Source of the DNA: a virus
Length of the DNA: 64,000 nucleotides
Reading direction: 5' to 3' (one strand)
Virus record (IMG/VR): IMGVR_UViG_3300032116_021241
Location: 1 to 64,000 of that record
The position numbers and the translations under genes were made by a program. The notes beneath the pieces are model-generated. The model did no database searches, was not told where the DNA came from, and saw only the letters and a program-made list of their open reading frames with translations. How positions within the stretch are numbered: position 1 is the first letter of the stretch; each line of letters starts with the position of its first letter. Of the stretch, positions 1-54,692 are shown one piece after another.

Positions 1-429
1 GCAGGATCATCTGGTACAAGCGGTAGTGCGGGTAGTTCTGGTACATCAGGAAGTTCTGGTAGTGCAGGAACATCTGGTTCATCTGGAAGTTCGGGTACAA
101 GTGGTAGTTCGGGTAGTTCAGGAACATCTGGTTCATCTGGTAGTTCTGGTACATCTGGATCATCTGGTAGTGCAGGAACTAGCGGTAGTGCAGGTTCATC
201 TGGTACAAGTGGTAGTGCAGGTAGTTCTGGTATAGATGGAAGTTCCGGTTCATCTGGAAGTTCTGGTACATCTGGTTCATCTGGAAGTTCGGGTACAAGT
301 GGTAGTGCAGGTTCTGCTGGTACAAGTGGTAGTGCAGGTAGTTCTGGTGTAAATGGAAGTTCTGGAAGTTCTGGTGTAAATGGAAGTTCAGGATCTTCTG
401 GGGCAGCTGGTACTTCTGGTTCCTCAGGT
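1..429 (+). repeat. Gly-X-Y (GSS/GTS/GSA) coding repeat, upstream block
   Basis: A nine-base period codes Gly-X-Y triplets, with Ser, Thr or Ala in most X and Y positions and occasional I-D or V-N variants near 232-378. Repeats of this kind form collagen-like trimeric shafts in phage fibres. They also promote recombination and length change. The block runs off the left edge. Confidence 0.85.
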
Positions 430-2151
430 GTTTCACCTACTTTACCAACTCCTGCTGATTTTATTTGGACTTATGGAAACAGTTATAACACTTCTTTAAA
501 AGTTTTAAGGAATAATTATACATTAAATGTTTATAGTAACTGGAGTATCTTGGCTGGAAGAAGTAATTCGATTGCTCAGTTTGCTGATCATGCTGGAATA
601 TTAGCCGGTAGAGACAACACTATAACATCAACTACATATAGACCAAGTCAATACGCTTTAATATTCGGAGGAAATCAAAGTAAAATTAAGAGATCATCTA
701 AAAATTCAGGTATATTCAATGGATATAAAAACTACATAGGAAATAATGATGACATTTACTTTAATACAACCAAATACAATAATATTACAACTGGAAAGTT
801 AAATAGAATAAATATAAATTTTGTTCCTACTCCTCAAGATAATATTAACATTGATTATAATTTAATTTCAAACGGTATTGGTAATAAAATTTATGCTACA
901 GCCCATACTCAAAGAAACTTTATAGTAAACGGATACCAAAACTTTTTAGGTTCTGCAAAAGCAAGTTTTATAGATAATGGTGCATACAATAAAATAGAAT
1001 TAAACATAAGAGGATATAAAAACAATTCTGATTATTTCAACGTATACAATAGTGTTTATAGTAAATATCATTTTATAAACAATGGATATAGTAACTTAAT
1101 TTCGGATTACCTAAGAATATATAAAGTAGATACTAATCAAAAATTCGAAATTAAAGGAAGATCAAACAGTATATTAAACGGGACTGATAACGAGATATAT
1201 GGTGGATTAAGTTTTATTACAGATGAAAATGCTACAACAACTTCTTCGCAATCATATTTTAATACTGTTGAAAATGGAAAGCAAAATAAAATCGTAGCTT
1301 CAGGAAAAACAAATTATAATTTCATACAAAATGGTTTACAAAATACAGTAAATAACACTACTAATTCTGGAATTTTAAATGGGTATAAAAATAGAATAAT
1401 ACAAATAATCAATGCAGATATTGATGGAAGGGCAGCCAATAATCTATTAAATAAATATAATAGTATTGGTAATGGAAATAGTAATTTAATTTCTGGACAA
1501 AATAAAGCAAATTCTGATTATACTTCTAAATACAACACTGTAGCTAATGGTAGATTAAATAAAATAGAAGCTACTTCATATAGAGGATATAGTGCAAATA
1601 CAGAATATAATTTTATTGCAAATGGAAGAGGAAATGAAATTTATGCAGCAAAATTTTCTGGTATTTTGGGTGGATCTGGACACACTATTCGTTTTAATCA
1701 TTCTGTTATACTTGGAGGTACAAATCTCACATCAACAAGAGATGAAGAAGCTAGAGTTAAGAATTTAACTATTACAAATCAAGTTCTTGGTGGAGATAGA
1801 TTTTTAACTATTGACTCTGCAACAGGTTATGTTTATTATACGGGAACTACTGGAGGGGGTAGTGGTTCTGGAACTTCTGGTTCAAGTGGTAGTTCTGGAA
1901 TTAATGGAAGTTCAGGATCTTCTGGTAGCTCTGGGGCAAGCGGAAGCTCAGGTTCATCAGGAAGTGCTGGAGAAAGTGGAAGCTCAGGTTCATCAGGAAG
2001 CACTGGGGCAAGTGGAAGCTCAGGTTCATCAGGAAGTACTGGAGCAAGTGGAAGTTCAGGATCTTCTGGTAGTTCTGGTGCAAATGGTTCATCAGGAAGT
2101 TCTGGTGCAAGCTTTCAACAAATGTTAATAATAACATCATTAGGAGTGTAA
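1..2151 (+). CDS. Ser/Gly-rich tail-fibre-like protein, 5' end outside the window
   Basis: The reading frame is open from base 1, so the gene starts before the window. The TTG at 550 is only an internal codon, and 716 residues are visible. Residues 1-143 are Gly-X-Y triplets (GSS, GTS, GSA). Residues about 144-612 hold at least fourteen copies of an N-G-x-x-N-x-I/L motif, which looks like a beta-solenoid. Residues about 618-704 are a second Gly-X-Y block, and only 12 hydrophobic residues follow it. This resembles the shaft and body of a receptor-binding fibre. The next three genes lie a few bases downstream and may be associated structural proteins. The very short end after the second repeat is odd, since most fibres end in a folded tip. 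Fibre function is inferred from architecture and from linkage to tail genes, not from a recognised family. Confidence 0.75.
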   Translation, partial: AGSSGTSGSAGSSGTSGSSGSAGTSGSSGSSGTSGSSGSSGTSGSSGSSGTSGSSGSAGTSGSAGSSGTSGSAGSSGIDGSSGSSGSSGTSGSSGSSGTSGSAGSAGTSGSAGSSGVNGSSGSSGVNGSSGSSGAAGTSGSSGVSPTLPTPADFIWTYGNSYNTSLKVLRNNYTLNVYSNWSILAGRSNSIAQFADHAGILAGRDNTITSTTYRPSQYALIFGGNQSKIKRSSKNSGIFNGYKNYIGNNDDIYFNTTKYNNITTGKLNRININFVPTPQDNINIDYNLISNGIGNKIYATAHTQRNFIVNGYQNFLGSAKASFIDNGAYNKIELNIRGYKNNSDYFNVYNSVYSKYHFINNGYSNLISDYLRIYKVDTNQKFEIKGRSNSILNGTDNEIYGGLSFITDENATTTSSQSYFNTVENGKQNKIVASGKTNYNFIQNGLQNTVNNTTNSGILNGYKNRIIQIINADIDGRAANNLLNKYNSIGNGNSNLISGQNKANSDYTSKYNTVANGRLNKIEATSYRGYSANTEYNFIANGRGNEIYAAKFSGILGGSGHTIRFNHSVILGGTNLTSTRDEEARVKNLTITNQVLGGDRFLTIDSATGYVYYTGTTGGGSGSGTSGSSGSSGINGSSGSSGSSGASGSSGSSGSAGESGSSGSSGSTGASGSSGSSGSTGASGSSGSSGSSGANGSSGSSGASFQQMLIITSLGV
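1852..2112 (+). repeat. Gly-X-Y coding repeat, downstream block
   Basis: This is a second in-frame Gly-X-Y block starting at a Gly-Gly-Gly turn. Its units are GSS, GAS, GSA, GES, GST and GIN/GAN. It separates the solenoid region from a 12-residue C terminus. Near-identical units in tandem make slippage or recombination likely here. Confidence 0.85.
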
Positions 2152-2156
2152 AAATT

Positions 2157-3059
2157 ATGATAATAGATTCAACAACAGATTCAATAAATGTTTTATTGTC
2201 GGGTAATGTAATAACATCGCAATTGGATATAATATCCTCTTATAATACTATAACTACAACATCTTTAACTCCGGGAAAATTTCAAGGTACAACTAATAAT
2301 TTAACACCAGTTACCATTGTTCCCTCTCCCGGTGTCAACCAACAAAATCAACTGAGATTTTGTTCTATATATAATAATGATAGTACAAACGCTACTGTAA
2401 CAATTCAATATAGTGGAAATGCGGGACAATCAATTATATTTATATCTAGTATTGATGCTGGAGATTCCATTCAATTTACTCATGATAAGGGTTGGGGGAC
2501 TTATGGTGCAGAAGGGGAGCAAAGAGTTTTGGGAATGAATGATGCTCCCGGAGAATTAAGATTTCCAATAAATCTTAAACCAATAAATTTAACAGATATA
2601 TTAACCTTGGCATCAGGTACAGATTATGGCTTTCATTTAGGAGAGGCAGATAGGGCTTATTCCAAAGTTAGTATTAGGTATAACGTTGTGAGTAATCCCA
2701 CTCCAACAACTTATGCTGAAGTTGCTATATATAAAACTCAATTTAAATTAGCTTCAGCAACTACTGTAGTAAATCTATGTGGATTTGCTGATATATCTGG
2801 AGTTATAAATACGACCGGAAACAAAACAACAACTATTAATGTTACAGGAATAACAGAAAACGATGATTTATTTGTTGTATTTGGAACTGTTCATACTGGA
2901 ACATTTACATTAAGAGCTGGTTTGGTTGATTCATTAGAGTCCGGTGGAGCAGGTTCAGTAGCTGGAAGCTTAAGACCTTCAACAAATTCAAGTTTAACAC
3001 TAAACACTTCCGGTGTTTTAAATATTCCTTGGATTGCATATCAACCATCTCAATGGTAA
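2157..3059 (+). CDS. probable virion protein, first of three tandem paralogues
   Basis: This is a 300-residue, beta-rich, Thr/Ser/Asn-rich protein with no signal peptide. It shares with the next two genes an N-terminal block (Asp-x-Thr-x-x-Ser near residues 4-9, then a Thr-rich stretch ending in VPSP at about 57) and a C-terminal block. The C-terminal block has LGEADRAYSK near 160, an AE-x-AIYK strand near 185, and an RPSTNS motif near 275. It begins five bases after the fibre gene stop, behind an A-rich leader. The context suggests a fibre-associated or capsid-decorating protein. I do not recognise a named family. Confidence 0.6.
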   Translation: MIIDSTTDSINVLLSGNVITSQLDIISSYNTITTTSLTPGKFQGTTNNLTPVTIVPSPGVNQQNQLRFCSIYNNDSTNATVTIQYSGNAGQSIIFISSIDAGDSIQFTHDKGWGTYGAEGEQRVLGMNDAPGELRFPINLKPINLTDILTLASGTDYGFHLGEADRAYSKVSIRYNVVSNPTPTTYAEVAIYKTQFKLASATTVVNLCGFADISGVINTTGNKTTTINVTGITENDDLFVVFGTVHTGTFTLRAGLVDSLESGGAGSVAGSLRPSTNSSLTLNTSGVLNIPWIAYQPSQW

Positions 3060-3071
3060 AAAAAATAAATT

Positions 3072-4010
3072 ATGGTATTAGACGCAACAACAGATTCGCT
3101 TGAAGTTATATTATCAACGGCACACTCAGTAAGACCGCTGCAATTTTATGTATCTTATAATACTATTAATGTAACCAATTCGACAATAGTTCCCACAAAA
3201 AGTTTTGGTTCAACAAATGGTATTACATCTGTAACTATGGTTTCTGCACCATCATCTAACGAAGTAGATCAAGTAAAATTTCTTTCAATTTACAACTGTG
3301 ATAATAGACAAAATACTGTTACTGTAAGGATAAATTCATCATCTAATTTTAGAATATTATTTTCAATTCAATTGCTTAGTGGAGAGCAACTTCAATACAC
3401 AATTGCTGATGGTTTTAAAGTTTTTAATATGGATGGTATTTTAAAAACTGCAAATGCAACAGTTGGAAGTGCCGGAGTTAAATATGCTGTTTTACCTAAT
3501 CCATACTCTAATGGAACACAAACAATAACCAGTGGAACTGATTATGCATTTTATTTGGGAAAAGCAGATAGAAGATATGATTCTGTAACAATTCAATTAG
3601 CTGTTACTACAGCACTTGGAGCTACAATAACATGGGCAGAAGCAGCAATATATAAAGGTTATCCAGAAATTGCAACAAATTTGACTTTGACCAGATGTGG
3701 ATTTGTCGATGTTTCGACTGGTACAAACCACGGCGTAAATGCTACTGGAGGTAAAACTATTGTTATACCAATAGGTGATGGTAATCTTTCTGTTGGAGAG
3801 GATATTTGGTTTGTTATAGGGACTGTTACAAGTGGTACGGCTTTAGTTCTAAGATCTGTTGGGGCTGGTGGTGTAGATACTATAGGTGCAGGCATTGTTC
3901 AAACAGTAACCGGAAGTTTTAGACCATCAACAAATTCATCACTTTCTTTTACACTTCAAACAGCAGTCCAACCAGTACAAGTTGCTTGGTTTGGTGCTAT
4001 TAATGTTTAA
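3072..4010 (+). CDS. probable virion protein, second of three tandem paralogues
   Basis: This 312-residue protein is clearly related to its two neighbours. It has the same N-terminal start pattern (VLDATTDSLEVILS), a SAPSSNEVDQVKF segment that corresponds to the PSPG region of the first copy, LGKADRRYDS, AEAAIYKG and FRPSTNSS. It is predicted beta-rich, with no membrane segment. The leader is AAATAAATT with no Shine-Dalgarno sequence. Tandem duplication followed by divergence is the simplest explanation. The function is unknown, and a fibre-tip or adhesin role is an inference from position. Confidence 0.6.
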   Translation: MVLDATTDSLEVILSTAHSVRPLQFYVSYNTINVTNSTIVPTKSFGSTNGITSVTMVSAPSSNEVDQVKFLSIYNCDNRQNTVTVRINSSSNFRILFSIQLLSGEQLQYTIADGFKVFNMDGILKTANATVGSAGVKYAVLPNPYSNGTQTITSGTDYAFYLGKADRRYDSVTIQLAVTTALGATITWAEAAIYKGYPEIATNLTLTRCGFVDVSTGTNHGVNATGGKTIVIPIGDGNLSVGEDIWFVIGTVTSGTALVLRSVGAGGVDTIGAGIVQTVTGSFRPSTNSSLSFTLQTAVQPVQVAWFGAINV

Positions 4011-4022
4011 AAATAAATAAAA

Positions 4023-4937
4023 ATGCTAATAGATAATACCAATGAAACAATTGAACTAGTACTTGCTGCTAGTGTTACGACAAATCAGGCAACATTTTCT
4101 TGTTCATTTAATGAATTTTCATCTAATACGTTTTCAGGGAATGAAACTAATGGTACAAGTAATAATACCACAGCGGTGACTTTAGTAGCAAGTCCTTCAT
4201 CAGGTTTTCAAAGACAAGTTAGAGAATTAATTATTGAAAATAATGATACCGCTTCGATTACAGTCACCATAAGATTTAATAATACATCGGTTACTAGAAT
4301 AATTATGAAAGCTATATTAGCAGTTGGAGATAGTTTAACTTATTCAGCACATGACGGTTGGAATTGTAAAGATACAAACGGAGGAATTAGATTTTATAAC
4401 ATACATATCAATCCAACTGGAAGTGTTAGAGGTCCTGAATTTTTTCCAGTTTCTGCTGCTGCTACGACTACAACTTTAGGTGCGAATGTTGCAGGTCAAT
4501 ATTTGGGTAAAGCTGAAAAGGCATATTCATCAATCGATTTTAGGTATAGAGTTGATACGGCTATTGCTGGTACTCAAACATTTTCTGAACTGGCTGTTTA
4601 TAGGATTTCAAATAGAATGAGCATAGGAACACAACAAGTATGGACAAGATTGGGTTTTACAAACTGTGCTGCTGTATGGAATTCCACCGGTTTAAAAACA
4701 ACTAATGTTGCTCTTACAGGTTGTAGAACAGGTGATGATTTATATGTAATTTGGGCAAGTAATAATACTACATCTATGGCACCAAGAAGTGGCAACTATG
4801 CTGATCCAATAAGTTCAATATTACAAGTTACAACAACAACCGTAGCAAGCTGGAGACCAAGCACATCACCTCTATATCAAGCTACAAGTTTTACTGCAGC
4901 TGCATCAGCTGTATGGGTCTTGTGGCAAGGAAATTAA
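4023..4937 (+). CDS. probable virion protein, third of three tandem paralogues
   Basis: This 304-residue protein is the most diverged of the three. It keeps the LIDNTNETIELVL start, the ASPSS element, YLGKAEKAYSS, ELAVYRIS and WRPSTS. The copies differ most between the conserved blocks, as expected for surface loops under selection. Its TAA stop overlaps the stop of the convergent gene on the other strand within one TTAA sequence, and no terminator is visible. The role is inferred only from position behind the fibre gene. Confidence 0.6.
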   Translation: MLIDNTNETIELVLAASVTTNQATFSCSFNEFSSNTFSGNETNGTSNNTTAVTLVASPSSGFQRQVRELIIENNDTASITVTIRFNNTSVTRIIMKAILAVGDSLTYSAHDGWNCKDTNGGIRFYNIHINPTGSVRGPEFFPVSAAATTTTLGANVAGQYLGKAEKAYSSIDFRYRVDTAIAGTQTFSELAVYRISNRMSIGTQQVWTRLGFTNCAAVWNSTGLKTTNVALTGCRTGDDLYVIWASNNTTSMAPRSGNYADPISSILQVTTTTVASWRPSTSPLYQATSFTAAASAVWVLWQGN

Positions 4938-7297
4938 AATATAATTTTATTAATTTTATCTATTACCATATTTGAAGTAATTGATTTGGTACATTCAAAT
5001 TGTCTTGAAGTTCCTTTATGTCTTGGGCACCAATTCCAGTCAGCAGGATCTAATCTAAAATCATTGAAACATCCATTGCAAGTTTTAGTCTGATCTTCTA
5101 CAAACACTCGTTCACAATCTGTCATTTCGCAAATAGGTCTAGAAAAACCACTTATTAATACAGTTGGTTTATTCAATGACCAAGATAACCATGATAAACC
5201 ACTGCCCAATCCAATAAAACCTTCTGAGTGATAAATATAATTACATATTTCTTGAATAGTCTTACCATCTATTTTAATTACACCTTTAGGGTTTTTATTT
5301 CCCATATAATTATCAGGTTCTTTTGATAAAAGAAAAACTTCATAATCATTAGATTTCAAATAGTCAACAACTTCTTGCCAGCCGTTTGGATTATTCCAAT
5401 ATTTAGATTGAGCTGTGGAATGATTAGCAATACAAAAATATTTTTTATTAGTTGGTCTTTCAGATGGAGTAAAATCTATTTTTGGTTTTATTTCTTTGAA
5501 TTCTAATCCCAAAATATCACAAGCTGTTTTTTGTAGATGTTGATCTCTGAAATTAAAAGGATTTTTTGATGATACTATTTCGTTTTTATCATCATAAAAC
5601 CAACCTATAGTAAACATTTTATATAGATTATGAACTACTGATCCCGGTTGAACAAATTCTATTTCTGGATAATTTTTTTCAAAAAAACTATTATGGAAAG
5701 TTGAACATATTACTTTACAATTATTTTTTATTCTAAACTCTTCAACTTGTGGAAACCAAGCGATTGTGTCTCCCAGTGATGAGGAATCTAAGTGTATATA
5801 TATACGTTGATTTTCAAATGATGGTTTAATGATATGAGTTTTACCTTCAAGTTTATATTGTATATAAAAATCTCTATGATATTCTCTGTTCAACTGAGCG
5901 AACATATTATTTCTTAAAGTGGTTTCGTATAAAAGATCATTTGTTTCATTGTCAAAAAATCTGAATTTCACTTCAAATTTTTCTTCGCATTTTAAATCTA
6001 TTCTTGGTTCTTTAAAATATGAAAATAAAACTTCTGTTTTTGTTTTTTTATTTTCTTTAATTGAAATTGGTGTTTTTTCATAAACATCAATTAGTGTATC
6101 TTTAAGATTCATGTTTTCTTTTTTTTCATTATTTGATCCTTTATCAAGTTCAATAAAAGAAGCTCTAAAGTTTTGGTAATTAAAATAAATTGGAATTTTG
6201 TTTTGTATTTTTTGTTTAATCAATTCTAAATTATTTATGCCACTTCTATTGTTATTGTGTAGGTGAGTGTTATCAGAAAAATAATTTATTTTACAATTTA
6301 TATTAGAAGCAATTTCATATATAGTTTCGGCATCATCAAATGAATTTATTCTTAAAAAAGCATAATCCAAATCAATATATTCATCAAAATAAAGATCATG
6401 ATCAAAAAAAAGAATTTTTAGTTTTTCATTTTGTTTTTCATTGTAATTGAAATTAAAGAAACCTATTTTTTTTCTTGAATTTTCCCAGTTTAATGGACTT
6501 ATATATGTTGATTCGGCAGCTTCGTATATATCATCAAAGAATGTGTTTTTTCTCGGATATTCAATATTTGAATTTTTTCTTCTTTCTTTTGCTTCTTTTA
6601 TGAGAACAACCTCACCTCTTATATTCCAATTTCTAAAATTTTCAGAATCATAATGTTGTCTAGCCAAATAAACTGTTCTAGGAATAGTCAACCATTTTCC
6701 TTTTTCTTCGAGATTAATTAACCATTGAGCATCATTAGAAGTACATATTTCATTATCTTCATGTACTTTAAAATTAAGTTCTGGTAAATTTCTAAATATT
6801 CTTAAGTAGCCAAAAATTCCACTTCTTTCTGGTGTCAATCTTTCAAATGCTTCTAAAAATGAATTATTATCTCTTGATATATAAACATTGTCAACAAATC
6901 TTTCTAAAAAATTTTCTTTAGAGGAAGGTAATGAATCTTGATATTTATTAGCATTAAAATGTAGAAAAATAACTTCTGGAAATTTTTCAAAATAAAAAAC
7001 AATCTTTTCAAATGTATTTGGTAAAATTTTATCATCACCATCAATTGGACATACTATGTCTCCGGTAGCATGTAGTTGTGGATTCCACCAAATTTCTTTT
7101 TTATAATTTGGTTTTTTTAATTTTATTCTGTTATCTAGTCTTGAAAGTTCTTCGAGAATTTTACCTGTATTGTCTGAAGAAAAATCGTCAGCTATAATCC
7201 ATTCCCAATTATTATATCTTTGAGACAGAATTGAACTTGCTAATTCTTGGATATATTTTTCAGAATTATAAAAGGAAGTTATTATAGATAATTTCAT
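4934..7297 (-). CDS. GT2 glycosyltransferase fused to TibC-like protein O-heptosyltransferase
   Basis: This is a 787-residue two-enzyme protein. Residues 1 to about 230 are a GT2 (GT-A) domain with the ITSFYNSEKYI start and a DGDD metal/nucleotide motif at 86-89. Residues about 415-787 match the bacterial autotransporter heptosyltransferase family (TibC, Aah). They show an RFFDNET beta domain, LGDTIAWFPQVEEF, HSTAQSKYWNN, GLGSGLSWLSW and LISGFSRP. Four cysteines (740, 743, 757, 769; CX2CX13CX11C) match in kind the iron-binding cysteines of TibC. Family members attach ADP-heptose-derived sugar to Ser of beta-solenoid adhesins. The nearby Ser-rich solenoid fibre is the obvious candidate acceptor, but that is inference. 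The real sugar donor is unknown. Confidence 0.82.
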   Translation of the reverse strand: MKLSIITSFYNSEKYIQELASSILSQRYNNWEWIIADDFSSDNTGKILEELSRLDNRIKLKKPNYKKEIWWNPQLHATGDIVCPIDGDDKILPNTFEKIVFYFEKFPEVIFLHFNANKYQDSLPSSKENFLERFVDNVYISRDNNSFLEAFERLTPERSGIFGYLRIFRNLPELNFKVHEDNEICTSNDAQWLINLEEKGKWLTIPRTVYLARQHYDSENFRNWNIRGEVVLIKEAKERRKNSNIEYPRKNTFFDDIYEAAESTYISPLNWENSRKKIGFFNFNYNEKQNEKLKILFFDHDLYFDEYIDLDYAFLRINSFDDAETIYEIASNINCKINYFSDNTHLHNNNRSGINNLELIKQKIQNKIPIYFNYQNFRASFIELDKGSNNEKKENMNLKDTLIDVYEKTPISIKENKKTKTEVLFSYFKEPRIDLKCEEKFEVKFRFFDNETNDLLYETTLRNNMFAQLNREYHRDFYIQYKLEGKTHIIKPSFENQRIYIHLDSSSLGDTIAWFPQVEEFRIKNNCKVICSTFHNSFFEKNYPEIEFVQPGSVVHNLYKMFTIGWFYDDKNEIVSSKNPFNFRDQHLQKTACDILGLEFKEIKPKIDFTPSERPTNKKYFCIANHSTAQSKYWNNPNGWQEVVDYLKSNDYEVFLLSKEPDNYMGNKNPKGVIKIDGKTIQEICNYIYHSEGFIGLGSGLSWLSWSLNKPTVLISGFSRPICEMTDCERVFVEDQTKTCNGCFNDFRLDPADWNWCPRHKGTSRQFECTKSITSNMVIDKINKIIF

Positions 7298-7323
7298 TTA
7301 TATAATTTTATTTATTTAAAACA

Positions 7324-8805
7324 TTAAAAATTCTTGAGTTTTTTATTTTTAATCTTAATTGCAAAGTTATCCATTTTTAAATTAAAAGGGATTTTATTCA
7401 CAAAAAACTGAGTTAATCTATATTGTCCAAAATTTATTCTTAATTCATATAATTCATTTTCTTTAAGAGGTGAACTTGGAACCATATAAAAAGAGTTATT
7501 TTTTATTCTACACCCAGAAATTACAACTCCATTTTTATTATGTACAGTTGCCATTATAAATAAATTTTTTTCACATAAAAATTCAAATCTTATATAATTT
7601 TCTTCCACGTTAATTAAAAATGTAGAATTTACAAATTCTTCACTCTCTAAATATTCATTTTTGACAAATGAAATTTTAACTGCATTATCTGCTAACCAAG
7701 TTTTACCAAAAGAATGGTCACAATTTAACCAAGTTTTTTCAATATCTGGTCTAGATTTATAATCTATTAATTTTTTCTCTGTTTCACAATCTTTTGATAA
7801 AGTCCAATCTGTTTCGGTATAACTATTGTAATTTTGATTTTCACCAACCCTTAACCATTTTTCTTCGAATTGAGTGTGAGATAATCCTCTAAAAATTCCC
7901 CATGAGCTGACACGAGGTAAACATATTGATTCATTACCCCTTTCGAAAAAAGAAATATTATTCATTTTTAATCTAAAAAACCAATCTAAATCTTCACACT
8001 CACCTCCAATAAATCTTTCATCCATCAAGCCAATTTTTCTAAACAATTGTTTTGAACAACCAAAAAGTCCAAAATTAACCTCTGAAACAAATGCATAACC
8101 AGAACACAAGAGAACTAAAAGATTTTCTATAATTTCAAACGTTGTATTTACTCTTGGATGAATCCAAAAAATAAATTCACTATCATGCATACAAAATACA
8201 GACTCATTTATAATTTGAGAAAAAGAATTGTATGTGCCTGACCAAATTTCATTTCTAAACCATGTTTCATAAACAAAATTATTTTTTACACAATCTTTTA
8301 GAATTATTTTTTCATTTTCATAATTATTTTTACCTAAAAAAGCTAAACCTATTTTCGATGGTTTTAATTGACGAGCTTTAAGGAATTTGAAGTATTTATC
8401 AGTTACATCGTTCAAAAATGATATTTTTTGAGTTCCATTAAATATTAATATTAAATTTTTTTGATCTGTAATATTTATTTTAAAAGATGTTATATCAATT
8501 AAATCTTTTAATTTATTCTCAATTAAAAAATATTCTTCATTGTTTTCTGTAATAATAGCTATTGATCCCCAAAGGTTAATTTTATTTATCAAACTATGTA
8601 TGTCATTATTTTCATTATCTGATAAATCTTTAAATTTTATTATTATCAAATCAAATTTATGATTCAAAGAATTATAATAAATTTCACTTGATTGATTGCT
8701 GTAATCCTTTTTATTTTCTAAAATTGAATTTTTGTCTAAAATTTTTGAATAATTTAATAAATTACAAGTTGTAATAAGTAATTCTTTGATAAATATATAA
8801 TTCAT
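7324..8805 (-). CDS. putative GT2-like glycosyltransferase
   Basis: This 493-residue protein has a GT-A-like core between about residues 190 and 310. The core includes a SEFIFWIHPRV segment, an acceptor loop GLMDERFIGGECEDLDWFFRLK and the downstream SWGIFRGLSHTQFEEKW. The E-D-x-D pattern is typical of the catalytic-base region of family 2 enzymes. The first 180 residues and the last 130 match nothing I recognise; the C terminus looks beta-rich. It sits between the TibC-like fusion and an SDR reductase in the same direction, with gaps of 0-26 bases, which fits one operon. The specific sugar cannot be read from the sequence. Confidence 0.6.
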   Translation of the reverse strand: MNYIFIKELLITTCNLLNYSKILDKNSILENKKDYSNQSSEIYYNSLNHKFDLIIIKFKDLSDNENNDIHSLINKINLWGSIAIITENNEEYFLIENKLKDLIDITSFKINITDQKNLILIFNGTQKISFLNDVTDKYFKFLKARQLKPSKIGLAFLGKNNYENEKIILKDCVKNNFVYETWFRNEIWSGTYNSFSQIINESVFCMHDSEFIFWIHPRVNTTFEIIENLLVLLCSGYAFVSEVNFGLFGCSKQLFRKIGLMDERFIGGECEDLDWFFRLKMNNISFFERGNESICLPRVSSWGIFRGLSHTQFEEKWLRVGENQNYNSYTETDWTLSKDCETEKKLIDYKSRPDIEKTWLNCDHSFGKTWLADNAVKISFVKNEYLESEEFVNSTFLINVEENYIRFEFLCEKNLFIMATVHNKNGVVISGCRIKNNSFYMVPSSPLKENELYELRINFGQYRLTQFFVNKIPFNLKMDNFAIKIKNKKLKNF

Positions 8806-9597
8806 TTATAAATATTTTTTTTTAAAGTATATCATAGATAAAATTTGCATATCTAGACTTGGTAAATTAATATCACTTTCTAGACATTTGTTTATGTTTT
8901 TTTTATTAAGAACGGGATTTATTTTTTTATTTAAATGTAGAAAATTATTAAATTTTGATAGTAATTGATATTTGCTTAATTTTTCTGAGCCTACTTGAAT
9001 TACATTTTCAAAATTTTCAGGATTTTCTATAATAAATTCACAAATTTCAGCCCACTGCAATGTAGTTATTCCATTCCAAAAAACATTAGTAAATCCATCA
9101 ATTATTTGTCTTTCATTATTAACAAACCAATTCCAAAGAGAAAAATTAGAATTTTTTTCTGGTCCAACGATAGAAGTTCTTATTTGCTTTACATTTTTAT
9201 AGTTTTTCTCTAAGAACAATGATCCATATGCTTTGGATGAACCATAATTATCTTCAGCATTTCTTATTGTTTTTTTTGAATAAAATCCATTTTCTTCAAT
9301 ATTACCATTAAACTCACAATCTGTGCTAGGATGAATGATCAATCCATTAAAATTATCAGCCAACCATATTGGAAGCATGATGTTAATCGTTAAGTAATCA
9401 TTAAGTTTTGGATTTTTTTGAGGAATAATTCCTATGCAATTAATTAATACATCAGCTTCAGAATTTTTAATTTTCAGTTTAAAATTTTCATCAGGCCATT
9501 TCAAATCTAATGTATCAACTTTGAAACCTTTGATTTTAAAATAACTTAAAACAACATGGCCTAACATACCATTGTGGCCCAATATTAAAATTTTCAT
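8806..9597 (-). CDS. RmlD-like nucleotide-sugar reductase (extended SDR)
   Basis: This is a 263-residue extended short-chain dehydrogenase. It has the N-terminal nucleotide-binding motif GHNGMLGH (7-14), an HPSTDCEF strand and the catalytic YGSSK. Its shape matches RmlD and the SDR part of CapF/WbjC, which reduce 4-keto-6-deoxy sugars on nucleotide carriers. It abuts the next gene and lies two genes from a PseB/CapE-like dehydratase that could supply a 4-keto intermediate. Together they could make a 6-deoxy-talose, rhamnose-like or FucNAc precursor. The pairing is an inference, because the CapF cupin domain is absent. Confidence 0.72.
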   Translation of the reverse strand: MKILILGHNGMLGHVVLSYFKIKGFKVDTLDLKWPDENFKLKIKNSEADVLINCIGIIPQKNPKLNDYLTINIMLPIWLADNFNGLIIHPSTDCEFNGNIEENGFYSKKTIRNAEDNYGSSKAYGSLFLEKNYKNVKQIRTSIVGPEKNSNFSLWNWFVNNERQIIDGFTNVFWNGITTLQWAEICEFIIENPENFENVIQVGSEKLSKYQLLSKFNNFLHLNKKINPVLNKKNINKCLESDINLPSLDMQILSMIYFKKKYL

Positions 9598-9600
9598 TAT

Positions 9601-10152
9601 TTAGTAAATTAATTGTTTAAATCTACTGATTTTTTTTACCATGGTAACGCCCGGATTAAATGGTAGTGTTAGAATTTCAAAATCGTCAATTAAATTTTTT
9701 TTAATAAATAAAGGGGTTTTATATGCATCATTACAAAAACCCGGATCAAACATGTAAGGGTCATAAGGGTATGTATCATGAAAGAATATGAATCCATCTT
9801 CTATAATGTGTTTTGAGGCATTCATAAAATCTTTTAAAGATTGTTCATGTGAATGATCAGCATCAATAAAAATCATATCAAACTTAATGTTGGGATCTAG
9901 TTCTTCAAAAAATTTGTCTGTTGTCATTTGAAAATATTTCATATTACCTTTTAAGTTAAATGGACATGATGATGTGTCTACTCCCCAAGACTCTTGACAA
10001 AATTCAGAAATTGGATTAAAATTTCTTCCATCTCTCACACCAAGCTCTAAATATCTTTCAGGTTTTAAGTATGAACATATAAATGAAAAATAAGATACAT
10101 GATCAAATGTTTCAAGTGGTGGTGGTACGTTTCTTAAGTGTATTGGTTTCAT
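9601..10152 (-). CDS. class I SAM-dependent methyltransferase
   Basis: This 183-residue protein has a Rossmann methyltransferase fold of the Methyltransf_24 type. It shows YLELGVRDGRNF (motif I, near residue 35), an acidic WGVDTS strand end, and FDMIFIDADHSHEQSLKDF followed by a GFIFFHDTYPYD segment. Proteins of this kind in polysaccharide loci methylate sugars. The gene is tightly packed, with gaps of 3 and 7 bases to its neighbours in the same operon. The substrate is unknown; O-methylation of the glycan built by the adjacent transferases is the likely role. Confidence 0.7.
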   Translation of the reverse strand: MKPIHLRNVPPPLETFDHVSYFSFICSYLKPERYLELGVRDGRNFNPISEFCQESWGVDTSSCPFNLKGNMKYFQMTTDKFFEELDPNIKFDMIFIDADHSHEQSLKDFMNASKHIIEDGFIFFHDTYPYDPYMFDPGFCNDAYKTPLFIKKNLIDDFEILTLPFNPGVTMVKKISRFKQLIY

Positions 10153-10159
10153 ATTTTTT

Positions 10160-11086
10160 TTAAATATTGTTGAAGTAATTTTTGTTCAATAAAAATGTAT
10201 TTAATTCTTCTTTACTTAGACAGTGATCTTTACTTGAATATTCTTTGAAATTTAATTCATTGAAAACCTTATGATAATGCATTAACAAATAATTATCAAT
10301 TTCTTTTGTTCTAGAAACTTCTTCTTCTGCAATCATGATTTCGTGTATTTTTTCAGATATTCTTGGTTCACCTATTTTATATCTCAAACCAAATTTTTTT
10401 TGATAAATTTCGAAAAGATCTTTAATATAAAAACTTTTTATTTTAGGTATTATATTGTAGCTTTTTTGTGTCAAAGAAAATTCAACTAACTCTATAGCTT
10501 CATCAATAGTCAAAATAAATCTTGTCATATTTTCAGAATATAGAGTCAGTTCGTAGTCTTTTTTTATAGCATCCCAAATTAGAGGGATAATACTTCCAGT
10601 AGAATTAGCAACATTTCCATAAATTGCACAACTCAATCTTGTTTCTGAGCATTCAGAGTTCACTATAAAACTTTCTCCAGCTACAAATTTCATAGCTCCA
10701 TATAAAGTCGTAGCTCCTCTACTCTTATCAGAAGAAATAAAACAAGCTGATTCCATCTTATTTTCCTCTGCTACCCTTCTTGAGTTTAATGCCCCTTCTA
10801 TAATTATTTTTACTGCTTCCTCCACGTTTTGATCAACACTTTCTATTTGTTTTAGAGAAGCTGCAAAAATTCCAATATCATGTTTTGTTGAAGCTCTCTT
10901 TAATAAATCATAGTTTCTAATATCTCCAATTACAGTTTTAATTTTTGGATATTCTTTTTTTAAAAAATAATGCTTTGATTCATCTCTACTATAAACTGTA
11001 ATTTCGTTATTATTATAATATTTTTTTATAAGATTTTTACCTAAAAAACCTGCACCTCCGGTTATAAATATTTTTTTATCTTTCAT
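10160..11086 (-). CDS. UDP-GlcNAc 4,6-dehydratase-like SDR (PseB/CapE/FlaA1 family)
   Basis: This 308-residue protein belongs to the Polysacc_synt_2 group. It has GGAGFLGKNL (10-19), DIRNYDLL, the characteristic FISSDKSRG active-site segment and YGAMKFVAGE, which carries the Lys of the catalytic dyad. PseB and CapE convert UDP-GlcNAc to a 4-keto-6-deoxy sugar, some with C5 inversion. These are first steps towards pseudaminic acid or L-FucNAc. No PseC or PseI homologue was seen in this window, so the RmlD-like reductase at 8806-9597 is the more likely partner. Assignment to the family is confident; the exact product is not. Confidence 0.75.
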   Translation of the reverse strand: MKDKKIFITGGAGFLGKNLIKKYYNNNEITVYSRDESKHYFLKKEYPKIKTVIGDIRNYDLLKRASTKHDIGIFAASLKQIESVDQNVEEAVKIIIEGALNSRRVAEENKMESACFISSDKSRGATTLYGAMKFVAGESFIVNSECSETRLSCAIYGNVANSTGSIIPLIWDAIKKDYELTLYSENMTRFILTIDEAIELVEFSLTQKSYNIIPKIKSFYIKDLFEIYQKKFGLRYKIGEPRISEKIHEIMIAEEEVSRTKEIDNYLLMHYHKVFNELNFKEYSSKDHCLSKEELNTFLLNKNYFNNI

Positions 11087-11091
11087 AATTT

Positions 11092-14000
11092 TTAAATTAA
11101 ATCAAATTCATGGTCTAGGTTTTTTGAATATTGTAAATATCTTTCATATTCCTCCATAAACGGATTTAGATTTCCCCCCTGTGAAGCTCCGGGTTGATAG
11201 TACCATCTTTCGTTCAAATGATATATTTTTGGATCTAGATATTTGTTCGCAATTCTCACTGTTCCATCTATTTCATTTTTCCATGGATTTTCATTCTCTT
11301 CTAAAGAAGAAATTAGAAATTCTCTATTCCAGATACATGCATTGTGAGTCAAAAGCCATTCACTATTATTTTTTGCTTTTAATACTCTTTTACCTTCAAC
11401 AAAATGACTTGTTTTAATAAATTCATATGAACCCCAAAGCTTTTCATGTATTCTTAGACAGTTCCAATCGTTTAACCTAACCTTGTGAAGAGATTTCTTG
11501 AAAGTATTATAATCAGCTTTTACTGTAAGCCACATATCTTCCTGCATATATAATACATATTTTGTATTCAATTTACTCAAAATATCGAGTAGTCTATTTG
11601 AAAATTGAGATGAGTCAATTGATTTAGGAGATTTAATGTTATTAACCCTGAAATCATTGAATGGTAAATCTTTTTCTTCTGTACAAAAATATACCGGCCA
11701 ATTCAAACTCCAATCCCAATATCTGGAAAAAGATAAATACCAACCATTCCAAAATCTTTCATAATTATCACATGATTGAATAATTACAGTTATATCATCA
11801 TCAATATTTTCTTTTCTATATATTGGGGTATTTGGATCGATATCAGTTCCCTCTTTAAATCTCATATCTATTGATGATATTCCGGGCTGTTGAAGAAAAT
11901 AAGGTATTCTATAAATTCCTCTTTTTCTGTTCCAGAAAAATATATTACACCATAGATCATATGCATCCCAATTTGTATTTAATAGTTTATCTGCATATTC
12001 ATTTATGTGAGATTTAGTTATTAAATAACAATGTGCTTCTGATTGTTTGAACGTGAAGAACAAATCATTAACTATATTTTCGTGCTCAACTCCCGGAATT
12101 TGTTTACCAAAAGATGTTGAGATTAAATCATGTTTATTGTTTAAAAAATAGGTATCTATAATTTTTTCATAAACTTCTTTATATTCACCAAAAACTATAC
12201 AATCACATTCACAAATCAATATAGCATCATAATTTTTTATATAATCATCACAAATTGATTTTTTGTGTGAATTATAACATCCATAGTGAGATGGTGTCAA
12301 CAAATAATCTCCGGGATTTAAAGATATTGCGTGTGGTCTTTGACAATTTTCATAAGGGGGTAAATCATAATATTTTGGTGTTATTAATTGTTCATAATCT
12401 AATCCGTAAGATGATAGGTTGCGAAGAGATTCTATAGATTTAATTTCTCTTGGACCTTCGGGATTATTTAATATATGAATTATTTTGATTTTTGGTTTTT
12501 TGATACAATAAAAATTAGATAAATTTTTATCATCTGTATAATTGTCTTGATAATTGAAGCCACAATCTTTTAAAGTTTTTACTATAAAATTATACCCTTC
12601 AATTCCTATTGAATTAATATGAATCTCTCCTGTTATTTTCTTTATTTTATGTTTTAAAAAATCTTTGTCAATAGTTTCAAAAAATTCTAATTCTGCCCCT
12701 TCGCAATCAATCTTTAAATAATCGATATAATTGATATTGTTTTCAGAAATAAAATCATTTACATTTTTTATTGTGACTTTTTCTTTTTTTCTATTTAAAC
12801 CCCAATAATGTTCTATGTTTTCTGTTAATTCTTTCTTACCTGATATTGATGAAACCTCGCCTGTTAAAAATTCTACTTCTTCATTTTTAGCACCTATTCC
12901 GAAATTGAAAACTTGTATGTTGGATAAATCTTTTGTATTAAATTTTAAATATTCATATGTCTCTTTTATGGGTTCTATTGAATAAACCTTTTTAGCACCC
13001 ATCGAAGCAGCATATAATGTAAAAAGTCCTATATTAGAACCAATATCAACAACTATATCATTATTCTCTATGTTTTTATAATCTTCTCTTATGAAAATTT
13101 CATAAAAACTCCAAAATGAAGAATGATCTATTGGATTACATTTAAGTTCTATTTTTTTATTTTGTATTATTATTTCTGTTGTTGGAAATACATTTGGTTT
13201 CCATGTAGTTTTTTTTAAATCTAAAAAAGATTCACTTTGTATTATGTTTAAATCGTTGTCAAAAAATTCTACACAAATTCCATTTCTATGATTTTGTTGA
13301 GCATTTGGAATCATCCACATTCCATCTCCCTTATTGAAAGATAAGTCTGAATATAGACTTTGAAAAACTAAATTGGTTAAGGGGTCTCTCATTCTTATAT
13401 TGTATGTTTTGAGAGAAGGGTGATTGCTTATTATTGAATAATGTATTTTACCTTCATTTTCATCATAAGACACATCAAAAAATTTTTGTTTAGTTCTAAG
13501 TTTTAATTTATCTTTAATTAATTCAATATTGTTCTCTGAATTAGATAAATAATTTATATTATCAAATTTATCAAAATAATTTTGATATACATCTAAATTA
13601 TAAAGTAGAATTGGAATTTTCCAACCGATAGCTTCTCTTAAAACTAAAGGCATTGTCTCTTTATCACCATTATTGCCCCTAGATGTAAAAAGAAATAAAT
13701 CCATGCAACTGTAAAAAGTATCTGTATCATTTCTTTCACCCCATATTCTGCAATTTGCAGGTTTGTTAATTAATAAAGGTTCCCAATAGAATTTAAAATT
13801 ATCAGCCTGATTTCCTAAAAAATGAAATTCTACAGTATTGTCAAAATATTTAGCTAATTCAAATATTTCAGCTTGATTTTTTCTTGGTGTAAAAAGTCCA
13901 ACATTTAATATATGTTTTTTTTTGGGATCTAATCCTAGTTTTATTAATGTTTCCTCTCTATTGGGTCTTTCTTTGTATTCTATTGGATATTCTGCCAAAT

Positions 14001-14457
14001 ATTTAGGAACATCAATATTTTTATATTGTTCAATTTGCCAATTGCTTACAAAAAGAAATGCATCTGGAAAATATTTTTTGTTTTCATCCGGATTGTAAGA
14101 TGAATCATGACTAGTTTCAAAAATTTTATATGATCTATTTTTATTATAAATAAAATCAGCAATTTCTTTTGGTAAAAAATATTCCGGAATTTCTTCAATA
14201 TGAATGAAATCTGGTTTGATATTATCAATTAAATCTTTAATTTCATATAATTTGTTTTGTCCTAAAGAGAAAAAATGATTTTCATCTAAAATTTTTGTTA
14301 TTCTGTTTCTTTGAATTACTAAAACTCCACCAGTAATATTTTCATATTCAATACAGAAAACCTCTAATTTATCCTTAAGAAGTTCTATTTTTTTGAATAA
14401 GTATTGTGGTAGACCCCCTGTTGAAAGGTGTGGAGCAATAAATATTATTTTTTTCAT
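11092..14457 (-). CDS. multidomain glycosyltransferase / FkbM methyltransferase
   Basis: This 1121-residue protein appears to hold four modules. Residues 1 to about 320 are a GT-B glycosyltransferase (PHLSTGGLPQYL start, ILNVGLFTPRKNQ, and the donor-site E-x-x-x-W-K-x-P region near 274-285). Residues about 430-650 are an FkbM-type methyltransferase (DIGSNIGLF at 471-479, SIEP, then YLKIDCEGAE). Residues about 660-880 resemble a glycosyltransferase-like region with CECDCIVF. Residues about 890-1121 form another GT-A-like module (VIIQSCDNYERF, YVLYMQEDMW). Such fusions combine several steps of one glycan. The gene starts the first sugar block after a 41-base gap from the tail genes. Confidence 0.7.
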   Translation of the reverse strand: MKKIIFIAPHLSTGGLPQYLFKKIELLKDKLEVFCIEYENITGGVLVIQRNRITKILDENHFFSLGQNKLYEIKDLIDNIKPDFIHIEEIPEYFLPKEIADFIYNKNRSYKIFETSHDSSYNPDENKKYFPDAFLFVSNWQIEQYKNIDVPKYLAEYPIEYKERPNREETLIKLGLDPKKKHILNVGLFTPRKNQAEIFELAKYFDNTVEFHFLGNQADNFKFYWEPLLINKPANCRIWGERNDTDTFYSCMDLFLFTSRGNNGDKETMPLVLREAIGWKIPILLYNLDVYQNYFDKFDNINYLSNSENNIELIKDKLKLRTKQKFFDVSYDENEGKIHYSIISNHPSLKTYNIRMRDPLTNLVFQSLYSDLSFNKGDGMWMIPNAQQNHRNGICVEFFDNDLNIIQSESFLDLKKTTWKPNVFPTTEIIIQNKKIELKCNPIDHSSFWSFYEIFIREDYKNIENNDIVVDIGSNIGLFTLYAASMGAKKVYSIEPIKETYEYLKFNTKDLSNIQVFNFGIGAKNEEVEFLTGEVSSISGKKELTENIEHYWGLNRKKEKVTIKNVNDFISENNINYIDYLKIDCEGAELEFFETIDKDFLKHKIKKITGEIHINSIGIEGYNFIVKTLKDCGFNYQDNYTDDKNLSNFYCIKKPKIKIIHILNNPEGPREIKSIESLRNLSSYGLDYEQLITPKYYDLPPYENCQRPHAISLNPGDYLLTPSHYGCYNSHKKSICDDYIKNYDAILICECDCIVFGEYKEVYEKIIDTYFLNNKHDLISTSFGKQIPGVEHENIVNDLFFTFKQSEAHCYLITKSHINEYADKLLNTNWDAYDLWCNIFFWNRKRGIYRIPYFLQQPGISSIDMRFKEGTDIDPNTPIYRKENIDDDITVIIQSCDNYERFWNGWYLSFSRYWDWSLNWPVYFCTEEKDLPFNDFRVNNIKSPKSIDSSQFSNRLLDILSKLNTKYVLYMQEDMWLTVKADYNTFKKSLHKVRLNDWNCLRIHEKLWGSYEFIKTSHFVEGKRVLKAKNNSEWLLTHNACIWNREFLISSLEENENPWKNEIDGTVRIANKYLDPKIYHLNERWYYQPGASQGGNLNPFMEEYERYLQYSKNLDHEFDLI

Positions 14458-40294: not shown

Positions 40295-40939
40295 TTAATT
40301 AAAGTTTTTTTTCCAATTATTATCAAATAATTCTTTTTCTTCGTAAGTATTGAATCTAAATGGACTTTTATTATTGAAAAATAATACGTGGTTTTTTATT
40401 TCTTGAACTTTTGTAAAACCAAAACTTTCAAGGTAATCAAAATTAGTCCACTCGTCATTTATTTTATGTATTTCTATGACCATACAATGTATGTAAACAT
40501 CATCAAAATTTATTCCTTCTAACACTTCTTTCTCATAACCTTCAACATCAAGGCTAAAAAAATGTATTTCATTTATATTATGTTTCTTGAGTAAGAAATC
40601 TAAAGTTTTACAAGGAAACTTAGTAGGAGACCAATTAGATTTATTATGAATGTTTATTATGCCACCAGTCATAAAATCATCAAAATCACCTTCTATGAAA
40701 TCTTCTTTATGATTTTTACTAACTAAAACATAATTTTCTAAAATTGTTTTAGGTCTAAAATCTCTATATGTAGAATTCCAATAATCTTTTGGTTCTACAA
40801 CTAAACCAGACCAACCATTTTCTTCTAAAAAAGTAGTATTACATTGATCATAAGGATTAGATCCACCAGCTTCAAAAAATATTTTTTCTTTGCCAAAAAT
40901 ATTATATATTATTTTATCAATCTGATTTTGAGAAGACAT
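40295..40939 (-). CDS. FkbM-family methyltransferase
   Basis: This is a 214-residue protein. FFEAGGSNPYDQ is the SAM-binding loop of FkbM proteins, followed by VVEP, then HFFSLDVEGYEKEVLEG, the typical D-x-E-G-x-E motif, and a VIEIHKI strand. FkbM enzymes O-methylate sugars and polyketides. Placed exactly between Fcl and Gmd, it probably methylates the sugar or glycan built in this operon. Gaps of 6 and 1 bases indicate one transcript. Confidence 0.75.
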   Translation of the reverse strand: MSSQNQIDKIIYNIFGKEKIFFEAGGSNPYDQCNTTFLEENGWSGLVVEPKDYWNSTYRDFRPKTILENYVLVSKNHKEDFIEGDFDDFMTGGIINIHNKSNWSPTKFPCKTLDFLLKKHNINEIHFFSLDVEGYEKEVLEGINFDDVYIHCMVIEIHKINDEWTNFDYLESFGFTKVQEIKNHVLFFNNKSPFRFNTYEEKELFDNNWKKNFN

Positions 40940-54068: not shown

Positions 54069-54692
54069 TCAAATTATTTTTTTATTAATACAAAAGCATT
54101 GATATGGTTTTTGACTATCGTAACTTACTTTTTTCATATTTTCTAAATCAATACAAGTTAATTCATATTTTTTTATAATTAAATCTTTTATAATGTCCCA
54201 ATCTTGTTGTAAATGACATTCAACCAAGATATATTTTGTTTTATAGATTATTTTTTCTAATCCCTCAAGAACAAATTTTTCTGCTCCTTCAACATCAATT
54301 TTAATTAGTTTAATAGATTCTTCATTCGAAAAAAAAGTATCGAGCCTTATTGATTCAACTTTTCCAGCTATTGGGTTTTCTACAAAATTCATGTCATGTC
54401 CAATTATATTATTTGTCCACGCATCTTTGCCTTTATAATAATTTATGATAGAATTTTCATTAGACACTGCTTTATTGTGTATGATTACATTTTGATTATT
54501 TTCAAATCTATTCAATAAAACTTTTGTTGTATCAGGGTCTAATTCAAAAGAATAAATTTTTCCTGTATTTTCTAGATTTTTCAAAAAAAATTCAGTGTAA
54601 TCTCCATAATTAGCACCTACATCAATTATAATATCACCTTTTTCGATGAATGATTTTAGAAATTCAAAATTTCTTATGTCGTTGTGGTCCAT
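54069..54692 (-). CDS. FkbM-family methyltransferase
   Basis: This is a 207-residue protein with DIIIDVGANYGDYTEFFL as motif I, IYSFELDPDT, then VESIRLDTFF and LIKIDVEGAEKFVLEGL, the standard FkbM D-x-E-G-x-E motif. YILVECHLQQ follows. It is the most canonical FkbM protein of the operon. It overlaps the upstream gene by 19 bases. Likely target: a hydroxyl of a glycan sugar. Confidence 0.78.
   Translation of the reverse strand: MDHNDIRNFEFLKSFIEKGDIIIDVGANYGDYTEFFLKNLENTGKIYSFELDPDTTKVLLNRFENNQNVIIHNKAVSNENSIINYYKGKDAWTNNIIGHDMNFVENPIAGKVESIRLDTFFSNEESIKLIKIDVEGAEKFVLEGLEKIIYKTKYILVECHLQQDWDIIKDLIIKKYELTCIDLENMKKVSYDSQKPYQCFCINKKII

Follow-up and report, generated by a model that had tools for sequence, protein, structure and literature searches.

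A fused TibC-type glycosyltransferase of a phage, probably directed at the phage's own proline-free collagen-like tail fibre

Here, we describe a putative protein glycosylation locus in the virus record IMGVR_UViG_3300032116_021241, of which the first 64,000 nucleotides were analysed; this whole stretch is called the window below. The source, a partial virus contig, is 103,946 bases long and carries two baseplate wedge genes. One open reading frame (ORF) on the minus strand of the window encodes a protein of 787 residues in which a GT2 domain is joined through a linker to a glycosyltransferase (GT) domain of the TibC/BAHT type, and it meets, tail to tail, a run of tail fibre genes. We propose that this two-domain enzyme is probably a protein glycosyltransferase acting on the phage's own collagen-like tail fibre, whose collagen tracts lack proline, and that neighbouring gene products extend the sugar. 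The features on which the argument turns are the following (positions in the window).

1..2151, plus strand: collagen-like tail fibre, truncated at its 5' side by the start of the record, proposed acceptor (PHROGs tail fibre, Pfam Collagen)
121..429, plus strand: collagen-like tract of the Gly-(Ser/Thr/Ala)-Ser type (Pfam Collagen, two listed stretches)
1942..2112, plus strand: second collagen-like tract, of the Gly-X-Ser type (Pfam Collagen, one listed stretch)
4934..7297, minus strand: fused GT2 - linker - TibC/BAHT-type glycosyltransferase, 787 aa (Pfam, NCBIfam)
6944..7288, minus strand: GT2 domain, residues 4-118 (Pfam, E-value 3.4e-20; DGDD motif by eye)
4937..6055, minus strand: TibC/BAHT-type domain, residues 415-787 (phmmer, TIGR04414, AlphaFold2 model, Foldseek)
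5768..5770, minus strand: Asp510, equivalent to the catalytic Asp110 of TibC (alignment)
5246..5248, minus strand: Ile684, at the place of the adenine-contacting Arg286 of TibC, the Arg being lost (alignment)
4991..5080, minus strand: iron finger, Cys740/Cys743/Cys757/Cys769 (aligned to TibC Cys339/342/358/370)

The C-terminal half of the fused enzyme is a full-length TibC-type domain. The NCBIfam model TIGR04414 (hepto_Aah_TibC, a family named autotransporter strand-loop-strand O-heptosyltransferase) covers residues 418-785 with profile positions 7-374 of 374 and a score of 286.9 bits, the curated cut-off being 200, while a phmmer search of this half against the PDB, with E-values of up to 1 admitted, returned two sequences, both of them TibC (4rap and 4rb4; best E-value 2.1e-54 across 350 residues). 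The ColabFold AlphaFold2 model of residues 415-787, built on an input alignment of 27 sequences, has a mean predicted local distance difference test (pLDDT) value of 90.5, and its top 21 Foldseek matches are TibC chains with query template modelling (TM) scores of 0.82-0.87. Pfam also places GT9 on residues 611-721 (E-value 1.3e-7), but GT9 structures rank far behind the TibC chains by fold (query TM at most 0.55), and the reading of this half as a GT9 enzyme was thus ruled out. The four cysteines of the finger align with residues that serve as iron ligands in TibC (PMC4358343; this and all other papers are cited here from excerpts), and the residues of the sugar site are kept as well, T628 standing for Thr226, K632 for Lys230 and W703 for Trp305. 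An earlier, sequence-only reading of the window had described a GT2 domain and a complete TibC-type domain in one ORF, with these four cysteines as an iron site; the Pfam GT2 match, the full-length family match above its cut-off with the iron-binding cysteines aligned, and the confident model for which TibC chains come first all bear this out.

As to the GT2 part, its nearest solved relative is GalT1 (5hea, phmmer E-value 4.1e-10), which plays a role in the pathway of Ser-rich-repeat adhesins and differs from the window enzyme in that the matched chain has no TibC domain. The GtrB-like family phrog_841 gave only a weak match (E-value 7.8e-5, residues 1-94 of the fused enzyme), and the whole fused protein had no strong match in PHROGs to phage O-antigen conversion proteins of the GtrB type.

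The fibre had been read from the sequence as Ser-rich, which it is, and as mainly a beta-solenoid, which it is not: it is a collagen-like Gly-Ser-Ser protein in which a repeat insert between the tracts resembles, by eye, a beta-roll. Pfam Collagen (PF01391) matches the window's record five times, those listed being above the cut-off. A relative, L005, has an enzyme 77% identical over the whole protein and a fibre in which the collagen tract is kept and the solenoid-like insert is swapped for other sequence. On another contig, L003, the enzyme is identical to that of the window and the fibre extends further upstream; this upstream half (L003:15818-18826) is a very long Gly-Ser-Ser repeat ending in a frame change, which we read as assembly trouble, although it may reflect either an error of repeat length or assembly, or real slippage. 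Antisense to the collagen repeat, at L003:17079-18746, lie long Pro-Glu/Leu-rich open frames, which should not be called genes, since the codon pattern of the repeat produces them mechanically. The tRNA-Arg reported by ARAGORN at 1844-1932 of the window is probably a false positive, as it falls within the repeat-coding region of the fibre.

A scan of viral sequences gave 130 stretches coding for relatives, and the best 80 of these were kept; together with the window and the isolated Microcystis phage Mel-JY01 they carry 83 domains at 82 loci, which were grouped at 90% identity into 34 clusters. Asp110, Lys230, Trp305 and all four cysteines of the iron finger are kept in 34/34 clusters, while the position of Thr226 is occupied by Thr in 31, Ser in two and Gly in one. 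The domain is fused to another in 26 clusters and stands alone in eight. Among the 24 fused clusters that were scanned for partners, PF00534 (GT4-type) was found in 16, FkbM in three and GT2 in two, namely the window and L005; the fusion to GT2 is thus a single lineage within a broader tendency to fuse. A search of 50,697 phage records with the TibC part gave four matches, one in Mel-JY01 and three in uncultured records that are 636-735 kb in size. The Mel-JY01 protein (WWT39291.1, coding sequence 4750-8430), annotated as an FkbM methyltransferase, has a TibC-type domain 46% identical to that of the window and likewise collagen-like ORFs close by, yet a different N-terminal part, of 868 residues, precedes the domain. 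In L660, one of two loci inspected from the three uncultured records, roughly 3.7 kb separate the enzyme gene from a Gly-X-Ser ORF. With 130 viral relatives and an isolate at hand, the earlier remark that no described phage had such an arrangement no longer holds.

The enzyme co-occurs with Gly-(Ser/Thr)-Ser collagen-like proteins. We counted an ORF as collagen-like and Ser/Thr-rich when it had at least six Gly-X-Y triplets and at least 40% of its X and Y residues were Ser or Thr. Such an ORF is present in the flanks (within about 10 kb) of 23/34 phage clusters, at 57-6703 bases from the enzyme gene (nearest distances, median 1295). Over whole records (12 genes in 11 records, two of which represent one phage) the fraction of other ORFs lying as near or nearer to a collagen-like ORF was 0.04-0.39, with a combined p of 0.0014, and Pfam Collagen was matched in 24/26 related records. 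The partner that recurs with the enzyme is the Gly-(Ser/Thr)-Ser collagen-like tract and not a solenoid. The idea of a phage machine that glycosylates its own fibre, which had been put forward from the sequence, survives as the most plausible one, with the acceptor changed from a solenoid to the collagen-like tract.

The same association was found among bacterial homologues. A genome scan returned 384 relatives, of which 80 loci were kept, many of them contigs of metagenome-assembled genomes (MAGs), and a quick tree of 129 rows, which are not independent of one another, was built. TibC and 72 bacterial rows (59 loci) form an autotransporter clade on a long branch with a Shimodaira-Hasegawa-like approximate likelihood ratio (SH-aLRT) support of 100. 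None of the 72 rows within this clade has a collagen-like neighbour, in contrast to 39/56 rows outside it (22/34 phage rows and 17/22 others); the window itself was scored as having none because its locus in the tree count spans only 5.4 kb. Four of the non-phage rows (L087, L089, L090, L094) carry large fibre-like ORFs and in this resemble phage contigs. Within the autotransporter clade, 27/59 loci have a large ORF rich in Ser, Thr, Gly and Asn (at least 500 aa, above 38%) within 250 bp. Outside it, seven genes of chromosome type stand 8-176 bp from proteins made of Gly-Thr-Ser/Gly-Ser-Ser repeats. The small repeat proteins beside the TibC-like genes are:

L088:11130-11438
L091:11013-11714
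L092:8876-9847
L095:8829-9779
L098:11234-11641
L099:3730-4128
L131:8446-8826 and 11189-11815

These proteins appear to be lipoproteins or secreted (signals judged by eye) and belong to methanotroph and other proteobacterial genomes; the context of L095 and L131 is that of an ordinary chromosome by eye, and that of L091 was inspected as well. The L091 pair, with the transferase gene at 9644-10903, comes from Methylomicrobium sp. RS1. Since chromosomal genes of bacteria adjoin such proteins, the pairing of enzyme and collagen-like protein is independent of phages. One relative on an archaeal MAG contig (L096:997-3348) aligns at the catalytic residues, while at the places of the iron-finger cysteines it has K, Y, N and a gap.

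That some bacteria pair Gly-X-Ser proteins with a TibC-like gene of their own raises the thought that the phage enzyme glycosylates a collagen-like or other surface protein of the host and not the fibre. We consider this very improbable: the phage gene adjoins phage fibre genes, and the phages have Gly-X-Y tracts of their own, in nearly all related records and in the near flank of most clusters, as counted above.

A converse search was started from the tracts. A DNA pattern for Gly-(Ser/Thr)-Ser runs, blind to the enzyme, matched at least 80 loci, and among the matches listed 30 viral records of at least 40 kb with at least 20 Gly-(Ser/Thr)-Ser triplets were taken; neutral records of at least 40 kb, matched for size alone, were drawn by two arbitrary DNA words, one of them AT-rich. 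The converse, neutral and association tests overlap in part. TIGR04414 was matched in 17/30 tract records (16 above the cut-off) and in 4/37 neutral ones (Fisher p 1e-4), the latter being 0/19 for the first word and 4/18 for the AT-rich word, three above the cut-off. The 37 neutral records, nine of which have a Pfam Collagen match, comprise three with both enzyme and collagen, one with the enzyme only, six with collagen only and 27 with neither (Fisher p 0.04). Ser makes up 0.47, 0.56 and 0.74 of the Y positions in the three with both, one of these records having a weak partial enzyme match, while in five of the six without the enzyme its share is 0-0.08, and the tracts there are rich in Pro or carry other residues. 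In the pattern set, records with and without the enzyme cannot be told apart by composition, as its selection would lead one to expect.

Several results weigh against a strict pairing. No Ser/Thr-rich collagen-like ORF was found in the flanks of 11/34 clusters, eight of which have a flank shorter than 6 kb; L011, L015 and L046, however, lack one although each of their two flanks reaches about 9-10 kb. No Gly-X-Ser ORF lies within 15 kb of the huge-phage locus L661, the nearest collagen-like ORF is 25.7 and 28.2 kb off in two whole records, and 2/26 related records have no Collagen match. TIGR04414 was not matched in 13/30 tract records, whose contigs may be incomplete, and 12 of these 13 have Ser at Y of at least 0.51, so Gly-X-Ser tracts do occur without a detected enzyme. 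Among neutral records, G069 has Ser-Y tracts (0.67) and no enzyme gene, and G086 carries the gene but lacks a match to Collagen; the enzyme-positive record L283 of the pattern set has Pro-rich tracts in the stretch examined. The neutral controls, moreover, were matched for size and not for kinship or habitat, and the AT-rich set by itself gave 4/18; a set drawn by a baseplate gene for matching by kinship gave only six relatives and was not usable.

The minus-strand genes that precede the enzyme gene, and the plus-strand genes between it and the fibre, are as follows.

2157-3059, 3072-4010 and 4023-4937, plus strand: three paralogues of about 300 aa (PHROGs, no match)
7324..8805, minus strand: 493-aa protein, GT-A/GT2-like by eye (no significant family match)
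8806..9597, minus strand: RmlD-like sugar-nucleotide reductase (NCBIfam rmlD, below cut-off)
9601..10152, minus strand: Methyltransf_24 methyltransferase (Pfam)
10160..11086, minus strand: PseB/FnlA-like UDP-GlcNAc 4,6-dehydratase (below equivalog cut-offs)
11092..14457, minus strand: 1121-aa protein, GT group 1 (PF00534) and FkbM methyltransferase, C-terminal part without a Pfam match

The six minus-strand genes, each separated from the next by 0-26 bases, extend from 14457 to 4934, the fused enzyme being the last, and they converge with the fibre run in an overlap of 4 bases (4934-4937). The three small genes are indeed paralogues, as had been noted from the sequence (the second and third share 36% and 30% identity with the first), and by their position they would be fibre-tip or accessory proteins, possibly variants of a fibre tip or receptor-binding protein; four ORFs similar to them lie at L005:11110-14836, also without a PHROG match. 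FkbM methyltransferase domains occur three times in the window's record, at 12550-13047 (within the glycan cluster), 40430-40849 and 54204-54623. A scan for promoters and terminators gave nothing above shuffled sequences.

Under the reading that we prefer, the TibC-type domain would add the first sugar to serines of the collagen-like fibre, most likely to the Y-position Ser of Gly-X-Ser triplets, and the fused GT2 domain together with the same-strand genes at 7324-14457 (glycosyltransferase, sugar-nucleotide enzymes and methyltransferases) would extend and cap it. We infer this acceptor and this order of sugars, and the benefit may lie in fibre stability, recognition or shielding. The gene run might instead remodel a surface glycan of the host (lipopolysaccharide (LPS) or O-antigen conversion, superinfection exclusion), the fibre being near simply as part of a host-recognition island; this is the main alternative in kind. 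Earlier work interpreted phage glycosyltransferases of host-recognition regions as LPS modifiers (PMC7029224), and the weak GtrB-like match of the GT2 part and the presence of sugar-nucleotide genes agree with it. Nevertheless, we find it quite unlikely, since the characterised BAHT enzymes modify serines of proteins (PMC4358343), the iron finger is kept throughout the phage clusters, and bacterial members of this branch adjoin Gly-X-Ser proteins on chromosomes, such neighbours being absent from the autotransporter clade.

The sugar donor is a separate matter. In TibC, Arg286 contacts adenine N1 and confers specificity for ADP, and its replacement by alanine abolished or largely diminished the activity (PMC4358343). 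This position is not Arg in 32/34 phage clusters, the window enzyme with its Ile684 included, while Arg occupies it in 72/72 autotransporter-clade rows and in 11/22 other non-phage rows; at least four changes of state are needed on the quick tree. A search limited to three families of the heptose-synthesis type (PF01467, PF13580 and PF00294) found no match in the window's record; a related record of 216 kb has neither PF01467 nor PF00294, and both records may be fragments. PF13580 (SIS_2) is also unmatched in the 26 related records, the search in whole records having excluded the epimerase and phosphatase steps. With the adenine-contacting Arg lost and the three families unmatched in the partial record, the label of O-heptosyltransferase given to the enzyme from its sequence is doubtful.

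Some of the relatives differ. PF01467 was found in 14/26 related records and PF00294 in 7/26, side by side in those seven, and in 5/26 (G005-G008 and G014) a kinase-nucleotidyltransferase pair (PfkB and CTP_transf_like) stands at the enzyme gene, directly behind it or one gene off (G007 by coordinates). In L008, L009, L012 and L044 the pair scores best against the NCBIfam models for domain II and domain I of rfaE, though below the cut-off. The split rfaE/HldE-like pairs behind stand-alone enzymes are:

L008:11104-12232
L009:2947-4081
L012:11101-12235
L021:11098-12232
L044:11426-12567

The nucleotidyltransferase comes before the kinase, the first gene sharing 4 bases with the enzyme gene, and in L044 a small cupin-like gene is interposed. 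Phages with a stand-alone enzyme and this pair likely supply a heptose nucleotide, and because of the pair a heptose-like donor is credible for this sub-branch even without Arg286. The main alternative in detail is that the window enzyme is a true BAHT enzyme transferring heptose from ADP-heptose onto serines of a beta-solenoid fibre. The passing of the TIGR04414 equivalog cut-off, the repeat region seen by eye between the collagen tracts and the pair in five related records speak for it; it is unlikely all the same, as Arg286 is replaced, SIS_2 is missing from all 26 records, PF01467 and PF00294 are missing from the window's record and its large relative, and L005 lost the solenoid-like insert and kept both the enzyme and the collagen tract.

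Profile, fold and iron finger place the enzyme in the BAHT family, yet it is best read as a new branch of it, because Arg286 is lost and no autotransporter lies alongside. It shares with TibC and AAH (4rap, 4rb4; PMC4358343) the full-length domain, the predicted fold (TM 0.87), the catalytic Asp, the Thr226/Lys230/Trp305 set and the cysteines of the iron finger, and it differs from them in the Ile at Arg286, the GT2 fusion, a place outside the autotransporter clade and a collagen-like tail fibre as neighbour.

The composition of the tracts sets them apart from other collagen-like proteins. Phage tracts, which had been chosen for Ser and Thr, have Thr at 0.51 and Ser at 0.38 of X positions and Ser at 0.72 and Asn at 0.15 of Y positions, with Pro making up 1.3% of X and 0.5% of Y; the tracts of the window's record amount to 90 triplets with no Pro, and those adjoining ten bacterial genes are of similar composition. 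In bacterial collagens, by contrast, Pro is most frequent at X and Thr at Y (PMC8968730). TibC reportedly acts on Ser but leaves Thr unmodified (PMC4358343), a preference which fits the Ser at Y of the tracts. BclA of Bacillus spores is, like the fibre, a collagen-like Gly-X-Y protein, and it is reported to be glycosylated (PMC8968730). EPclA of E. coli O157 is a collagen-like protein of a prophage as well; however, its recombinant form is unglycosylated and is stabilised by an unusually high content of Pro, and in the same paper threonine glycosylation is named as a stabiliser of collagen (PMC3368898, citing Bann et al. 2000). The contrast between this Pro-rich collagen and the Pro-free tracts is one that we infer ourselves. 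A bolder and more doubtful extension, which we offer tentatively, is that the TibC branch is an O-glycosylation system dedicated to Pro-free Gly-(Ser/Thr)-Ser collagens of phages and bacteria, in which a Ser-linked sugar would replace the stabilising role of proline and hydroxyproline, folding of the fibre would depend on the enzyme, and the loss of Arg in most phage enzymes would mark a switch to another activated sugar.

Mycobacteriophage glycosyltransferases reportedly have a capsid protein as their target, unlike the fibre here. They are akin to the window enzyme in being proposed to act on the virion proteins of the phage itself (PMC11256854). In the open-access literature searched by title and abstract, a scope outside which subscription journals and preprints fall, we found no paper linking the TibC family to collagen-like proteins or phage fibres.

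These results offer a concrete pairing of enzyme and substrate for some glycosyltransferases of large phages that were previously read as modifiers of LPS or DNA, and they suggest a modification for Gly-X-Ser collagen-like proteins. The name 'O-heptosyltransferase' transferred through TIGR04414 may misstate both the sugar and the acceptor in this branch. Two questions that can be tested are raised by the finding: how proline-free collagen-like fibres are kept stable, and whether phages glycosylate fibres of their own.

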